Shown here in pieces: positions 19,522 through 46,687 of a stretch of 64,000 nt of DNA. A program made the translations under genes and the position numbers. Below the pieces are notes generated by a model. It saw only the letters and a program-made list of their open reading frames with translations, searched no databases and was not told the origin of the DNA. The stretch spans positions 1,798,001 through 1,862,000 of the forward strand of contig NZ_CP118615.1 in NCBI RefSeq assembly GCF_028993575.1, read 5' to 3'. This DNA is from Micromonospora cathayae (lineage in GTDB: Bacteria; Actinomycetota; Actinomycetes; Mycobacteriales; Micromonosporaceae). Position 1 is the stretch's first letter. Each line of letters opens with the position of its first letter.

Positions 19522-19740
19522 TCACCGTTCGGCGACGAAGACGCCCCGGCCGGGCCGACCGACCAGAACGCCCTGTTCACGCAATTTGGCCACCGCCCTG
19601 TGGATGGTCGAGTGGGACAGGTCGTAGTGGTCGGAGAGTTCGCGGGTGGACGGAATCTGAGAGCCCGGCGAGAACTCCCCGCTCTCGATGCGCTTCACGA
19701 GATCAGCGAGCAACTCGTCCATGGTGGGAGGAATCGGCAC
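19522..19740 (-). CDS. Mini GntR-type regulator (winged helix only), locus A
   Basis: A 72-aa protein from GTG 19740, which has AAGGGG eight bases upstream. It consists of a GntR winged helix-turn-helix: LLADLVKRIESGEFSPGSQI, the turn PSTRELSDHYDLSHSTIHRA and the wing LVGRPGRGVFVAE. It lacks the effector domain that all classical GntR subfamilies have, so the signal must come from elsewhere or it acts as a constitutive repressor. A similar 73-aa protein is at 44686-44907. It is divergent from the DivIVA-like/Cys-His pair and followed by the methyltransferase. Confidence 0.85.
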   Translation of the reverse strand: MPIPPTMDELLADLVKRIESGEFSPGSQIPSTRELSDHYDLSHSTIHRAVAKLREQGVLVGRPGRGVFVAER

Positions 19741-19859
19741 GTGGAGGCCCCTTGCAGTCGGTTGGCGCTCCCAGTATCGATCACCGTTTCGTGACCGGGC
19801 AACGACTGTGGGCAGACGAAGATCAGCACGTGTAGACAGATTAGCTAGGGAAGACAGCG

Positions 19860-19888
19860 TTGACAGAGGTTGTAGCGCTCGGTAGCGT
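19860..19888 (+). promoter_or_regulatory. Predicted sigma-A-type promoter of the DivIVA-like/Cys-His operon
   Basis: TTGACA (19860-19865) and TAGCGT (19883-19888) are 17 bases apart, a near-ideal vegetative promoter on the plus strand. Transcription would start near 19895 and give an untranslated leader of about 270 bases before GTG 20164. Confidence 0.55.
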
Positions 19889-20163
19889 CTTGACTGCGAT
19901 GCGGCACCGGCGGTCGGTTGGCACCTCTCGTACGGACGGCATCGATGCTTCAACACACCTGCCCTGAGGTGGGTGGTCGGCTGCTTCCCCCGGCCGGCTG
20001 CCCGTTCCCCGGTTCCCGGGGCGGCCCTGTCGTCGTCCGCCGGTCGTGGCTGCGCAGGACAGGGCGGGGGTGTCCCGGCCGGACCCGAACCAGCAGGGGC
20101 ACCCCCACATCTAGGAAACACCACTTCGGCGAACATCACCTGACTTCTGGAAGGCGGTCACCC

Positions 20164-20466
20164 GTGCGCGCGCTCCTGCGCCGGCTCTCCTCCCGGGGCC
20201 GGCACCGTCCACGTCCCCCGTCCACCCACGACAACCGGCACCCGCCGCTCTCGCCGGAACGCATCCGGGAACGGCGCTTCACCCTGCGCCGCCGGGGAGC
20301 CGACCCGGCCGAGATCACCTTGTTCCTCGCCCGGGTCGCCGACGAACTGGCCGTCGCCCAGACCGCCCTGACCGCCGTACGTGAGGAGAACGCCCGGATC
20401 AAGCACGCCCTGCGTACCTGGCAGTCCGCTCAGCGGCCGAATCACCGTGAGCTGGCCCGATGGTGA
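20164..20466 (+). CDS. DivIVA-domain-like small coiled-coil protein
   Basis: A 100-aa protein. GTG 20164 follows a GGAAGG site. A basic start of about 40 residues leads to ERIRERRFTLRRRGADPAEI and then LFLARVADELAVAQTALTAV, ending in a coiled-coil-prone REENARIKHALRTWQS. This pattern (RxFxxxxxGxDPxEVxxFLxxVAxE) is that of the DivIVA/Wag31 N-terminal domain, in a very short form. It may bind membrane or partner proteins, but no polar-growth role can be claimed. Its stop overlaps the start of the Cys-His gene by seven bases, so the two are coupled. Confidence 0.68.
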   Translation: MRALLRRLSSRGRHRPRPPSTHDNRHPPLSPERIRERRFTLRRRGADPAEITLFLARVADELAVAQTALTAVREENARIKHALRTWQSAQRPNHRELARW

Positions 20467-20747
20467 CCGCGCCCCGGAACCGGTGGGTCATCCACCTGCC
20501 GGTACTGGTACCCGACCTCAACCGGGCGCGGATCTTCGCCCGCACCGCCGTCCGGGCGCTCGCCCTGGTCACGACCTGTGTGGACGCCGGTGAGGTGACC
20601 GTGTCCGAGGAGGACGCGCAGGGCGTACGGCACCGGGTGTTCTGTGACCGGCTGCTGCCCGCCGGCGGCCGGTGTGCCCTGCCCACCGAGCACAGCGCGC
20701 CCTGCACCGCCCGGCGGCGACGTCCCAACCCCTCCCGGTACCGCTGA
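20460..20747 (+). CDS. Small Cys/His-motif protein, family member A
   Basis: A 95-aa protein of a family present three times in this window (also 44262-44537 and the fragment at 42934-43068). The N-terminal half RWVIHLPVLVPDLNRARIF is nearly identical to the second copy. The C-terminal half carries a C-x9-C-x5-H-x3-C pattern in FCDRLLPAGGRC and ALPTEHSAPC, suited to binding one zinc ion. No known family is recognised. It overlaps the DivIVA-like gene and is divergent from a mini-GntR gene, as is the second copy. Zinc binding and partnership with GntR are inferred. Confidence 0.7.
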   Translation: MVTAPRNRWVIHLPVLVPDLNRARIFARTAVRALALVTTCVDAGEVTVSEEDAQGVRHRVFCDRLLPAGGRCALPTEHSAPCTARRRRPNPSRYR

Positions 20748-42933: not shown

Positions 42934-43068
42934 TCAACCCGGTGGCTCCGGTGCCCACCGTCGCCGGGTGCGAGCGGACCGGGTGCAGGGCGCGGTGTGC
43001 TCGGTGGGCAGGGCGCACCGGCCCCCGCCGGGCAGTCGCCGGTCACAGAAGACCCGATGCCGTTCGCC
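42934..43068 (-). pseudogene. Truncated third copy of the Cys/His-motif gene
   Basis: On the minus strand this reads GERHRVFCDRRLPGGGRC then ALPTEHTAPCTR, keeping the C-x9-C-x5-H-x3-C pattern, and goes on to a stop at 42934. The N-terminal half (the WVIHLP part and about 45 residues) is missing; the upstream bases are unrelated. Bases 42976-43068 are about 92 percent identical to 44283-44375 without gaps. It is most simply a remnant left by a duplication around the metalloprotease gene. Confidence 0.7.
42976..43068. repeat. 93-bp direct repeat flanking the metalloprotease gene, left copy
   Basis: It pairs with 44283-44375 (offset 1307 bases, same orientation, about seven mismatches, no gaps). 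Both copies lie in the 3' half of the Cys/His gene family. Together they bracket the metalloprotease gene at 43242-44207. Confidence 0.85.
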
Positions 43069-43241
43069 CTGATCGTGCGGCTGCGGCCGGAGCGGGGCGG
43101 AGGGGGTCGGTGGACCGGCCGGACGAGGTCTTTCTTCGGTGCCACCGACGTGGTCTCATACCGGAACGACGACGTCATAGACCTGGTCATGGCAACCCCG
43201 CGTCGATAGGCACCGAACACACCCCATTGAAAGGTGCACCG

Positions 43242-44207
43242 ATGCACAGGAGATCAACCCTTCGACTGGCGGTCCTCACCGCGACCGCCGCGACCTTCCT
43301 GGCGGCCAATGGCGCGTCCGGCGCGGTGGTCGCGGCCGCGCCCGTGACCGTCTCCCCGGCAGCCGTCGAGTGCGAGCCCGACACCCACGGGCACAGCGTC
43401 GCCCGGGTCAAGGAAGGCGCCACCGCGCAGGAGCCGGAGCTGTACTCCAAGAACGAGGCCAACGCCTACGGCGTGCTCAAGGACGCCCCGCGCCTGCCGG
43501 ACGGCAGCGTCACCGTGCCGACGGTCTTCCACATGCTCTCCGACGAGCCGTTCAGCGCGGCCGAGAAGACCCGGTGGCAGACCCTCATCGCCGCCCAGAT
43601 GAAGGTCCTCAACGACTCGTTCTCCGGTGCCACCGCGCCGGACGCGTCCGACACCCCGTTCCGGTTCTCGCTGACCGACACGACCTGGACGGTGAACAGC
43701 GACTGGTACACCGTGGTGCCCGGCAAGAACGAGCGGGACATGAAGAAGGCGCTGTACACCGGCGACGCCCGCACCCTGAACGTGTACGCCGGCAACATCG
43801 GCGGCGGGCTGCTCGGCTGGGCGTACTTCCCGAAGGGCTACAACAACGGCCGTGACTACATCGACGGCGTGGTCATGCTGGACGAGTCGATGCCGGGCGG
43901 CACCGCCGGCAAGTACGCCGAGGGCGACACGCTGACCCACGAGGTCGGGCACTGGCTGATGCTGGAGCACACCTTCGCGCACGGCTGTTCGGCCTCCGGC
44001 GACTTCGTCGCGGACACCCCCCGCGAGGCCGCGCCCAACTTCAACTGCCCGGTCGGCGCGGACAGCTGCACCGCTCCCGGCCTGGACCCGATCCACAACT
44101 TCATGGACTACACGCAGGACTCCTGCATGAACATGTTCACCCCGGGCCAGGCGGACCGGATGAGCGACGCCTGGGTGGCGTTCCGGGCCGGCGGCGGCAA
44201 GCAGTAA
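43242..44207 (+). CDS. Secreted M43-type (pappalysin-like) zinc metalloprotease
   Basis: A 321-aa protein. A signal peptide (LAVLTATAATFLAANGASGA) is followed by a short prodomain. The protease domain carries LTHEVGHWLMLEHTF, the extended zinc motif with Met where most members have Gly, and the Met-turn FMDYTQDSCMNMFT. Four or more cysteines near GCSASGDFVADTP and FNCPVGADSCTAP form the disulfides usual for this family. It cleaves proteins outside the cell. It lies between two direct repeats of the Cys/His gene and ends at a strong terminator (44219-44258), features suggesting later insertion into the locus. Confidence 0.9.
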   Translation: MHRRSTLRLAVLTATAATFLAANGASGAVVAAAPVTVSPAAVECEPDTHGHSVARVKEGATAQEPELYSKNEANAYGVLKDAPRLPDGSVTVPTVFHMLSDEPFSAAEKTRWQTLIAAQMKVLNDSFSGATAPDASDTPFRFSLTDTTWTVNSDWYTVVPGKNERDMKKALYTGDARTLNVYAGNIGGGLLGWAYFPKGYNNGRDYIDGVVMLDESMPGGTAGKYAEGDTLTHEVGHWLMLEHTFAHGCSASGDFVADTPREAAPNFNCPVGADSCTAPGLDPIHNFMDYTQDSCMNMFTPGQADRMSDAWVAFRAGGGKQ

Positions 44208-44261: not shown

Positions 44262-44537
44262 CTACCGCCGCCGGTTCAGGCCGGACCGGGTGCAGGGCGC
44301 GGTGTGGTCGGTGGGCAGGGCACAGCGGCCCCCGCCGGCCAGCCGCCGGTCACAGAAGACCCGATGTCGTACGCCTTGGGCGTCCTCGGGCGATACGGTC
44401 ACCTCCCCGGCGTCGATCCGGGACGTGAGCAGCGCCAGGGCGCGCGCCGCCGTACGGGCGAAGATCCGGGCCCGGTGCAGATCGGGTACGACCACCGGCA
44501 GGTGGATCACCCACCGTTCCCCGGGCACGTTCACCAT
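44262..44537 (-). CDS. Small Cys/His-motif protein, family member B
   Basis: A 91-aa protein, roughly 75-80 percent identical by eye to the 95-aa protein at 20460-20747. It shares RWVIHLPVVVPDLHRARIF, DAGEVTVSPEDAQGVRHRV and the C-x9-C-x5-H-x3-C motif in FCDRRLAGGGRC and ALPTDHTAPC. There is no signal peptide or membrane segment. It is divergent from a mini-GntR gene, as in locus A, and has a well-formed promoter (44559-44587) overlapped by direct repeats that may bind that regulator. No known function. Confidence 0.75.
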   Translation of the reverse strand: MVNVPGERWVIHLPVVVPDLHRARIFARTAARALALLTSRIDAGEVTVSPEDAQGVRHRVFCDRRLAGGGRCALPTDHTAPCTRSGLNRRR

Positions 44538-44558: not shown

Positions 44559-44587
44559 ACGGTAGGGTGCCTTAGCGCTTAAGTCAA
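44559..44587 (-). promoter_or_regulatory. Promoter of the Cys/His gene B
   Basis: On the minus strand TTGACT (44582-44587) and TACCGT (44559-44564) are 17 bases apart, a good vegetative-type promoter about 20 bases upstream of the ATG at 44537. Confidence 0.6.
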
Positions 44588-44600
44588 TGTTCGCTTAAGT
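44576..44600. promoter_or_regulatory. Direct repeat, candidate GntR operator
   Basis: CGCTTAAGT occurs at 44576-44584 and again at 44592-44600, 16 bases apart, with TTAAG as a partly symmetrical core. The pair straddles the -35 element of the Cys/His gene and lies upstream of the mini-GntR gene, a natural place for its operator. Confidence 0.45.
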
Positions 44601-44685
44601 GGTTCTGGTCTTATTCGCTGCACCGACATCTTGCAGTCATAAGTTCACCCGTGCTCTGATGGTCTTGGAGACCGAGGAGTGCCAG

Positions 44686-44907
44686 ATGCCAGCACCTAAG
44701 TGGGAGCAGCTCGCTGACCACATCCGCAACAAGATCAAGTCCGGTGAGCTGAAGCCGGGTGACAAGCTGCCGTCGACCGCTCAGCTCAAGGCTGAGCACA
44801 AGGTGTCCGACTCTGTCATCCGGTACGCCATGCACGCGCTGCGTACCGAGGGGCTGGTCGAGAGCACCCAGGGACTCGGCGTGTTCGTAGCCGAGAAGAA
44901 GGGCTGA
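44686..44907 (+). CDS. Mini GntR-type regulator (winged helix only), locus B
   Basis: A 73-aa protein from ATG 44686 with GGAG upstream. The GntR fold is complete as a DNA-binding unit: QLADHIRNKIKSGELKPGDK, the recognition part LPSTAQLKAEHKVSDSVIRY and the wing LVESTQGLGVFVAEKK. No effector domain is present. It is similar in size and layout to the regulator at 19522-19740, both starting MPxP. The codon choice here is less GC-biased than in surrounding genes. It probably regulates itself and the divergent Cys/His gene. Confidence 0.87.
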   Translation: MPAPKWEQLADHIRNKIKSGELKPGDKLPSTAQLKAEHKVSDSVIRYAMHALRTEGLVESTQGLGVFVAEKKG

Positions 44908-44981: not shown

Positions 44982-46304
44982 TCACAGGGGGGTGAGCTGG
45001 TTCTCGATCTGATGCTTGATGATCAGCGGGGATACTCCGAAATGGGCTTCACTCGCCTCAAACTCATCCATCCCGATTTCGTACGGGGGGCCATCGATGA
45101 TCTTGGCGATGCCCTCTGCGGGCGCGAGGAGCTCTGCGGCGAAGGCTCGCTCGATTTTCTGCCGGGTGGTCTGTCCCTGCGTGACGAGAAACCGTTTGCG
45201 CGGTCGGAACAGGATGTTCCACAACGCGCGGGCGAGCGTGAACCTCGCGGAACTCTCGCGCTGCTGGCGTCCGAGGACGACCCGTGAACTCAGGTGATCC
45301 CGGCTGCCGCCCGCCGCTTGGAGGCCACGATCCGGTGCCGGCACGACCGCTTCGTCAAGGTATTCGGCAAAGCTGAAGAAGGCCGTGGAATCCAGACCGA
45401 GTGTGCGTCGCAGTGCTTGCGCATCGGCGTAACCACGCCTCCAGAGCGTCGGTGGGCCTGGCTCCGTACGCTTGAGGACCTCAGCACTCAGCGCTTCGAG
45501 GTCTCCCCCACGAGTGCTGGTCATGCGCTCGATCTCGCTTCCGGCTGCCGCGACCCACCGAAGATCCTCCACAATCTTCTCTGGGCTGACGGCGCTCAGA
45601 AAGTCGTTCAGCAGTTCTGCTTCGAGCTCATCGGCTGCTTGCAGGATGCCACTCTCGTACTTTGCCGCCTCGGAGTACGGATCGAGGCCCAAGCGAGCCG
45701 CTGCGAAGCAGTATGCAGCTTCTTCGGGATCGGTCTCCTGAATTGCCGCCCACTCTTCGTGTAGCCGCGTGGACTCGATGCCGAGGTCGGAGAGTCGAGC
45801 GATGACCTCCTCCACCAAACCGCCAAGAACCTGCTGGAGCCCCTTCGAATCCACCACGGTCTCGCCTTGCGTCAGGAACCGGATGGGTCTGTTCTCGACA
45901 TGCCCCCTGTCCGACAGCCAGAGTAGCCGGGTGTTGGAGTCCTCAGGGAGAAGGAACATGTTCGGCCACAAAAAACCGTCGCCGGCTGCACGCAGGCAGT
46001 GTCGCTGCCAGATCCTGTTACTGTCGCCCGACAGGCGGCCGGCCCGCAGCGCGGTGGTGCTGGACGCGGAGCGGATGCCCGACTGGAGGAACCACCAGTT
46101 GTAGGTGATCCACTCTGCGAGCGGGTAGAGCGAACAGGCGATGGCACGCCTGGAACTAGCCGATTGGCGGTCTTCGACGAGCGTCACGCATTCGTCGCCG
46201 ACGAATACCGACAGGCGGGCGAAGGTCGCACGTAGTTCGGGCGACCTGATGGTAGGAGCCGGCTCCCACTCCCATTGGATCCGTAACGCAGGCGTCCCGC
46301 TCAT
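44982..46304 (-). CDS. ImmA/IrrE-like protein without the zinc motif
   Basis: A 440-aa protein. The N-terminal half includes ARLSVFVGDECVTLVEDRQS and YPLAEWITYNWWFLQSGIRS. The C-terminal part follows the order of ImmA/IrrE metallopeptidases, RFTLARALWNILF followed by KIERAFAAELLAPAEGI, but the HExxH metal site is replaced by ARALWN. It is therefore probably a non-catalytic relative. The base composition is lower in G+C than its neighbours, a sign of transfer. ATG 46304 overlaps the stop of the 128-aa gene by four bases, with GGAGGGC upstream. A defence, toxin-antitoxin or mobile-element control role is possible but unproved. Confidence 0.65.
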   Translation of the reverse strand: MSGTPALRIQWEWEPAPTIRSPELRATFARLSVFVGDECVTLVEDRQSASSRRAIACSLYPLAEWITYNWWFLQSGIRSASSTTALRAGRLSGDSNRIWQRHCLRAAGDGFLWPNMFLLPEDSNTRLLWLSDRGHVENRPIRFLTQGETVVDSKGLQQVLGGLVEEVIARLSDLGIESTRLHEEWAAIQETDPEEAAYCFAAARLGLDPYSEAAKYESGILQAADELEAELLNDFLSAVSPEKIVEDLRWVAAAGSEIERMTSTRGGDLEALSAEVLKRTEPGPPTLWRRGYADAQALRRTLGLDSTAFFSFAEYLDEAVVPAPDRGLQAAGGSRDHLSSRVVLGRQQRESSARFTLARALWNILFRPRKRFLVTQGQTTRQKIERAFAAELLAPAEGIAKIIDGPPYEIGMDEFEASEAHFGVSPLIIKHQIENQLTPL

Positions 46305-46687
46305 TTCACGCCCTCCGGCCATTCACTCGGGTCCAGCGGCCACCCCTTGTAGTGGCCGAGTTCCTGGTTGACGAGGCGCCCTTCATACAGGACTTCTCCC
46401 TCCCGGTGCCACACGTAGCGTGGGAAGTCACCCTCCCAGGGTTCACCCACGTGACCAAGCCTGACAGCCGAACGTAACCATCTGGTGAGCTGGGCGGCAT
46501 CTCCCAGTCTGGGGTCGCACTTCGTGGCATCCGCCCGAGGACGGGGGTGGCCAGCGAACGAGGGGTATGTCTTGTGCTCGGGCGAGCCGACATAGAGAAC
46601 CCGCGAGGCGAGGTGCTCCAGATCCGTTCCGACGGGTACCTCGCTGCGGCAACGACGCATGGGGCGACGACGTTTGGGTGCGCGCAT
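46301..46687 (-). CDS. 128-aa partner protein of the ImmA-like gene, unknown family
   Basis: A 128-aa protein with a basic start (MRAPKRRRPMRRCR), then LASRVLYVGSPEHKTYPSF, GHPRPRADATKCDP, a helix with LTRWLRSAVRLGHVG and a Trp/Tyr-rich end (WEGDFPRYVWHREGEVLYEG, GHYKGWPLDP). The His, Asp and Tyr residues look conserved-type, as in a small nuclease or RNA-binding domain, but I do not recognise the family. GATACT (46694-46699) lies six bases before ATG 46687, which indicates a leaderless transcript. It overlaps the ImmA-like gene, so the two act as a unit. Confidence 0.6.
   Translation of the reverse strand: MRAPKRRRPMRRCRSEVPVGTDLEHLASRVLYVGSPEHKTYPSFAGHPRPRADATKCDPRLGDAAQLTRWLRSAVRLGHVGEPWEGDFPRYVWHREGEVLYEGRLVNQELGHYKGWPLDPSEWPEGVK

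Follow-up and report, generated by a model that had tools for sequence, protein, structure and literature searches.

Why should regulators that consist of a winged helix only stand back to back with small cysteine/histidine proteins, more than once in a single stretch of DNA, and which partner is under the control of which? The question arises in a 64,000-nt stretch of the Micromonospora cathayae genome, referred to as the window, in which an initial annotation had described the gene of a 72-aa GntR-domain protein (mini-GntR) running divergently from a DivIVA-like gene (DIV), the latter overlapping a gene for a 95-aa Cys/His protein (CH). This layout, locus A, is present as described and comprises the following features:

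19522-19740, minus strand: mini-GntR A, a winged-helix-only protein of 72 aa with a GTG start
19771-19802, minus strand: promoter-like element of mini-GntR A, TTGCCC-N13-TGATCGATACTGG, with the start codon 30 nt downstream
20164-20466, plus strand: DIV, a DivIVA/GpsB/Wag31-like small protein of 100 aa, gene 1 of the divergent operon
20460-20747, plus strand: CH A, the Cys/His protein, 95 aa, overlapping DIV by 7 nt

Locus B, where a second CH family member of 91 aa had been reported divergent from a 73-aa winged-helix-only GntR protein, is likewise found:

42957-43083, minus strand: truncated CH copy, C-terminal part only, with 120 nt of DNA matching the 3' end of CH B at 87% identity
44262-44537, minus strand: CH B, 91 aa, 79% identical to CH A
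44576-44600: probable operator (predicted), CGCTTAAGT twice (44576-44584 and 44592-44600), 16 nt start to start
44631-44662, plus strand: possible promoter of mini-GntR B, TTGCAG ... CGTGCTCTGATGG, a degenerate form of the shared element, aligned by eye with close relatives
44686-44907, plus strand: mini-GntR B, 73 aa, divergent from CH B

Both regulators match the Pfam GntR family far above its curated cut-off of 27 bits. Mini-GntR A, queried as a 70-aa form with a shortened start, scores 55.3 bits (E 5e-15), and its assigned start is supported by relatives that begin likewise with VPIPPT..MDELL, also from a GTG codon; mini-GntR B scores 64.8 bits (E 5.5e-18). Both proteins end directly after the wing, without a C-terminal effector or oligomerisation domain. 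GntR regulators with effector domains, such as those of the HutC, FadR and YtrA types, have the winged helix in common with the mini-GntRs, but the latter stop after the wing and for the most part measure 66-90 aa. No DIV was detected at locus B. The third, truncated CH copy exists, although the matching DNA lies at 42957-43083 and not quite at the 42934-43068 given in the initial annotation. A secreted-metalloprotease-like gene (43242-44207, with an HEVGH motif read by eye) lies between the direct repeats 42957-43076 and 44264-44383, which correspond to the CH fragment and the final part of CH B, as if it had been inserted or duplicated along with the CH repeat. Mini-GntR B is adjoined by the gene of a 446-aa protein (44982-46322, minus strand) that matches no Pfam family at E<=1 and no NCBIfam family convincingly.

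CH is a multicopy family of narrow distribution. The M. cathayae genome (7.2 Mb) encodes 12 copies, one of them frameshifted, and one fragment. The frameshifted copy (L016:4821-5213, minus strand) breaks after the first cysteine, near its end, in a G-rich run, and is either a pseudogene or a sequence error. In a family sample covering the Micromonosporaceae evenly, CH (E<=1e-5) was detected in 31 of 121 genomes and in 11 of 44 genera, and a class-wide sample contained it in three of 296 genomes, all three from the genus Micromonospora. The spacing C-x9-C-x5-H-x3-C that had been read in the 95-aa and 91-aa proteins is confirmed in both and is exact in 152 of 179 collected members, and a relaxed form (C-x7..12-C-x4..6-H-x2..4-C) is matched by 167 of them. 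CH may bind zinc through this Cys3His motif. The family has no Pfam or NCBIfam assignment (CH B alone has one sub-threshold Pfam match, E 0.12) and no sequence relative in the PDB at E<0.1. The structure predicted for it (pLDDT 84) contains a single long helix besides several short strands and matches no PDB fold at E<=0.001. Homologues numbered 637 among 8000 scored candidates, and those of the best 120 that are named are called hypothetical or uncharacterized, except for two UniRef labels 'Glyoxalase-like domain'. At four loci (L128, L229, L230 and L232), CH-like proteins without the Cys/His motif still follow DIV, and several of these are followed by small Cys-rich genes.

The pairing recurs well beyond the window. 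A GntR-domain gene is divergent from CH within 1.6 kb in 44 of 108 placements of the family sample, at 38 of 78 loci of a named set (Micromonospora with one Salinispora and one Plantactinospora record) and at five of 12 in the M. cathayae genome. By chance, a GntR gene is expected in ~0.3% of such 1.6-kb divergent stretches, or 0.3 of 108, a rate derived from 822 GntR-domain matches (E<=1e-8) in the 31 CH-bearing genomes (~233 Mb). Short GntR genes are common neighbours of CH in other Micromonosporaceae genomes, and the chance pairing that the initial annotation had allowed for is not upheld; the cassette is real, recurrent, restricted to the family and beyond chance. Where its length was measurable, the neighbouring GntR protein has at most 100 residues in four of five M. 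cathayae, 33 of 39 family-sample and 18 of 33 named-set cases, and CH-linked GntR proteins above 100 aa are mostly about 125-140 aa long with a short extra C-terminus. Genes were called with a simple codon-usage caller. The family sample had 148 CH matches, 134 of them outside the M. cathayae genome, and 108 placements were tallied, with two partial ones dropped and most of the weakest left out. The named set comprises 80 loci and 78 placements (three loci without upstream room, one partial dropped). In the M. cathayae set one partial match was dropped and a distant match at 7083399 (E 1.7e-6) excluded, and the count is five instead of six of 12 because the GntR gene of L020 is 1.8 kb off and falls outside the tally.

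At other CH loci the divergent position is occupied instead by a WhiJ-type XRE gene (20 of 108 placements in the family sample, 33 of 78 named loci and one of 12 in M. cathayae), accompanied by a DUF397 partner at 15 family-sample and 31 named CH loci. One such XRE protein is HTH_31 plus DUF5753 by Pfam, and its partner is DUF397. The models detected no divergent regulator for 44 of the 108 family-sample CH genes, one of which is preceded by a GntR gene on the same strand. When 40 unclassified loci were read by eye, several showed other XRE-like genes and one a LysR-like gene. In a synteny group of 11 CH loci, DIV is missing throughout and ten loci yielded no regulator. Regulators may be undercounted at L102-L130, where coverage extends only ~1.5 kb upstream.

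On the opposite side of the intergenic region, CH is commonly preceded by DIV, which was detected upstream of CH in 50 of 108 placements in the family sample, at 56 of 78 named loci and at nine of 12 in M. cathayae. The two genes overlap by 4 nt in 71 of 103 pairs and by 1 nt in 22, and because 93 of 103 pairs have one of these overlaps, CH belongs to the divergent operon. CH need not always have DIV, since the latter is undetected upstream of 58 of the 108 family-sample genes and at locus B. The DIV family profile matches the structures of GpsB (E 5e-7) and Wag31 (E 8e-7), and of 13 family members, 12 have a Pfam DivIVA match (E<=0.1); the DIV protein of the window by itself falls below the Pfam and NCBIfam curated cut-offs. 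DIV has the N-terminal domain in common with the scaffold proteins DivIVA, GpsB and Wag31 but differs from them in being ~100 aa long, multicopy and linked to transcription regulators. The M. cathayae genome has nine DIV matches by single sequence and 12 by profile (E<=1e-8), some in longer frames, and DIV start codons are often uncertain. TACCGC words enriched upstream of DIV were rejected as a motif; they look like coding sequence brought in by late start calls.

A Cys-rich protein of ~670 aa with repeated CxxC motifs, for which the two members tested have no Pfam match, is encoded by the next same-strand gene at most 400 nt past CH at one of 12 M. cathayae, 23 of 107 family-sample and 15 of 77 named loci. 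Examples are L051:4249-6267 and L014:5243-7243, which have two sets of CxxC repeats; such genes often follow CH or DIV. A 400-aa XRE family lies between DIV and CH at one M. cathayae locus (L020:5243-6454, minus strand) and faces a mini-GntR elsewhere (L218:2764-3969, plus strand).

Mini-GntRs are not confined to CH loci. We searched with a profile built from CH-linked mini-GntRs, so that the reverse count and the CH-distant loci are biased toward such relatives: 36 of the 101 top matches lie within 1.9 kb of CH and 65 away from it, and 39 of the 40 CH-distant loci described here were drawn from those 65. In the divergent direction from these 40 mini-GntR genes we found DIV at 18, the Cys-rich protein at 14 and four other families at five, four, two and one, three of these four with closely spaced cysteines. 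At least one of the six families is present at 29 loci, unclassified genes only at eight, and no divergent gene at three. The same kind of partner is faced by the mini-GntRs of four M. cathayae loci (L215, L216, L220 and L223). Operons of small proteins, often rich in cysteine, are thus a common partner of mini-GntR genes. The other families carry the motifs CxxCxxxWPC, CLGCGRPGPC, RAGDL..FDGW and CSCGxxYPC (L215:2614-2892, L244:1094-2062, L223:2791-3051 and L264, respectively), and the proteins with the first three have no Pfam match. Two or three mini-GntR genes are clustered at one locus in several cases (L012:5880-6413, L023, L113, L251 and L211). Regulators from loci with and without CH are closely similar, with 58-67 of 71-73 residues identical (82-93%) in three subgroups, and the CH-less members mostly face DIV or the Cys-rich protein; mini-GntR B has 62 of 72 residues in common with a regulator facing DIV and the Cys-rich protein. 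Within a single genus, the genomes G034, G079 and G105 have one, two and one CH matches, beside 26, 36 and 43 GntR and 10, 17 and 14 DIV matches. Among family genomes without a CH match, 14 of 18 have GntR matches to the CH-linked profile at E<=1e-18, part of them in long frames.

Many mini-GntR genes have an unusual promoter-like element upstream. Among 57 distinct mini-GntR upstreams, 20 contain TTG-N16..19-TGATCRA and 37 do not; among 501 others (19 long GntR, 26 XRE, 64 DIV, 26 Cys-rich and 366 other genes), none does. Since the motif was itself derived from these 57 sequences, genome searches test it better. In the M. cathayae genome, TTGW-N16..18-TGATCRAAT has three matches against none for the control, each just upstream of a mini-GntR, and the TTGC form of this strict element has no match there. 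The TTGD form has 68 matches in the 31 genomes against none for the control; in 30 of these that were read, a GntR start lies 18-28 nt downstream in 21 and no GntR in nine. The usual -10 form is TANNNT. The -10-like part of this element does not have it, which may reflect another sigma factor or an overlapping operator.

The predicted operator at locus B, the paired CGCTTAAGT site, lies 38 nt from the CH B start codon. Repeats are specific to regulator subgroups: relatives of mini-GntR B carry CTTAAGCGAA..TTCGCTTAAG, with GTTCGCTTAAG as related half-sites. The pattern CGCTTAAG-N2..20-GCTTAAG occurs once in the M. cathayae genome, at locus B, and once in 30 other genomes, against four occurrences of the reversed control in all 31. 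The paired site is rare, but what speaks for it as an operator is its position and the related sites in relatives, not its count. These control counts and the origin of the promoter motif weaken the operator evidence, and for this reason we slightly lowered our confidence in the switch model given below, which we still hold to be the probable one.

Loci that spread by copying could keep GntR and CH together through linkage only, without any functional connection. Many CH loci are indeed orthologous: clustering by shared flanks reduced the 179 CH genes to 50 groups, the largest with 29 members. Cassette genes were masked for this purpose, since otherwise 60 loci were joined, probably by the Cys-rich gene; a mixed group of 29 is left even after masking, and the CH loci are not independent of one another. 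The 50 groups are nevertheless divided into 22 with GntR, 14 with XRE, two with both and 12 with neither. On a CH tree, from which four loci and proteins under 65 aa were excluded, the GntR/XRE label switches at least 11 times, compared with 34-48 times in 200 label shuffles; regulator type is therefore mostly inherited with CH yet repeatedly exchanged. Inheritance of this kind favours linkage; exchange with the divergent position kept and a promoter-like element specific to mini-GntRs speak against it, and we regard adjacency without function as improbable. A toxin-antitoxin-like module, in which the divergent regulator would repress and also neutralise a growth-inhibiting CH or DIV-CH product, would account for the small proteins, the many paralogues and the decayed copies (the 42957-43083 fragment and the frameshift in L016). 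XRE-DUF397 pairs were once proposed as such systems, but 14 overexpressed DUF397 proteins had no clear toxicity in Streptomyces coelicolor (PMC10364602). Also against this reading, CH genes without a found regulator are conserved in a synteny group, and neither CH nor DIV has a PADLOC match, the latter being weak evidence. Antitoxin and toxin genes usually lie on the same strand, whereas the cassette is divergent. A module of this type is improbable in our view.

The initial annotation had offered two roles for CH, that of the missing sensor or co-regulator and that of the controlled product, and had assigned none to DIV. A dedicated co-regulator or zinc-responsive sensor would bind the mini-GntR and supply the effector domain that it lacks, and CH, being small, carrying a conserved Cys3His motif and standing beside an effector-less regulator, has some of the properties expected of one. 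The BldB/DUF397 proteins, small partners that do not bind DNA, are a precedent (PMC10294661). Against this role, the regulator next to CH may equally be an XRE protein with a DUF397 partner of its own, genomes with only one or two CH matches keep dozens of GntR matches, and CH is joined to DIV wherever DIV is present. Because closely similar mini-GntRs occur with and without CH, the latter is probably not a private sensor of the GntR protein. Mini-GntRs of CH-less loci may use CH supplied from elsewhere in the genome, and we consider the sensor role unlikely. The second role fits better: CH is most likely part of the controlled output, often as a partner of DIV.

The likeness to the paired regulator/small-protein loci of Streptomyces, also drawn in the initial annotation, is apt, as other CH loci have XRE-DUF397 pairs in just this divergent position. 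In Streptomyces venezuelae, bldB paralogues adjoin whiJ and abaA paralogues, and WhiJ9 binds direct repeats between whiJ9 and iosA and is required for iosA activation in a bldB mutant; AbaA has a HATPase_c domain, and the 15-kDa IosA resembles no solved structure (PMC10294661). The whiJ-bldB-abaA and iosA-whiJ9-bldB9 loci resemble the cassette in their many paralogues and in having the genes of a regulator and of a small protein on either side of one intergenic region, in the BldB-type DUF397 partner where the regulator of a CH locus is an XRE protein, and in intergenic repeated sites (locus B). They differ in the output slot, where AbaA or IosA is replaced at CH loci by DIV-CH, sometimes with the Cys-rich protein. 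The CH-locus regulator is often a single-domain GntR protein without a DUF397 partner, and CH was found in the Micromonosporaceae alone among the samples searched. Pairs of the Scr1/Scr2 type (a DUF5753 XRE protein with DUF397) are present at a subset of CH loci but were not detected at GntR-type loci, loci A and B included. Neither XRE nor DUF397 was detected at loci A and B of the window, which therefore are not members of the whiJ type by content, and it is by analogy that we infer that they may work like whiJ loci. No description of the cassette was found in the titles and abstract openings of the open-access literature searched.

Taken together, the cassette is probably a family-specific variant of a divergent regulator/small-effector switch, with an exchangeable regulator and a small-protein output that is often linked to a DivIVA-like protein. 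The window would contain two copies of a paralogous, two-sided switch. In each, a short regulator (mini-GntR here, WhiJ-type XRE with DUF397 elsewhere) would bind repeated half-sites in the intergenic region and thereby control, by repression or activation, the divergent operon and probably also itself. The output would consist of the small effectors DIV, with its DivIVA/GpsB/Wag31 N-terminal domain, and CH, sometimes with the large Cys-rich protein next. Where DIV is present, CH would be made together with it through the overlapping stop and start codons, and the two may form a complex. If it resembles AbaA6 and IosA of Streptomyces, this output may restrain growth or development, with DIV perhaps joining or disturbing the polar DivIVA scaffold.

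A bolder extension, which we think has little chance of being correct, is that some Micromonosporaceae possess a genome-wide mini-GntR network. Many of its members would be fired from the TTG-N17/18-TGATCRAAT promoter type, perhaps requiring a sigma factor or activator of its own, and each would face an operon of small DivIVA-like and Cys-rich proteins that assemble on the polar scaffold; the state of the scaffold would then cue the effector-less regulators, making polar growth itself the signal.

The cassette gives context to several protein families without a Pfam match. The whiJ/bldB/abaA network of Streptomyces is a long-standing puzzle, with many copies and small proteins of obscure action, and a regulator of 72 aa without an effector domain offers a simpler system for studying how such a switch is thrown. 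That a comparable layout recurs in another family, where the regulator is of a different class and the output of DivIVA type, suggests that cassettes of this kind may act on the polar growth scaffold.
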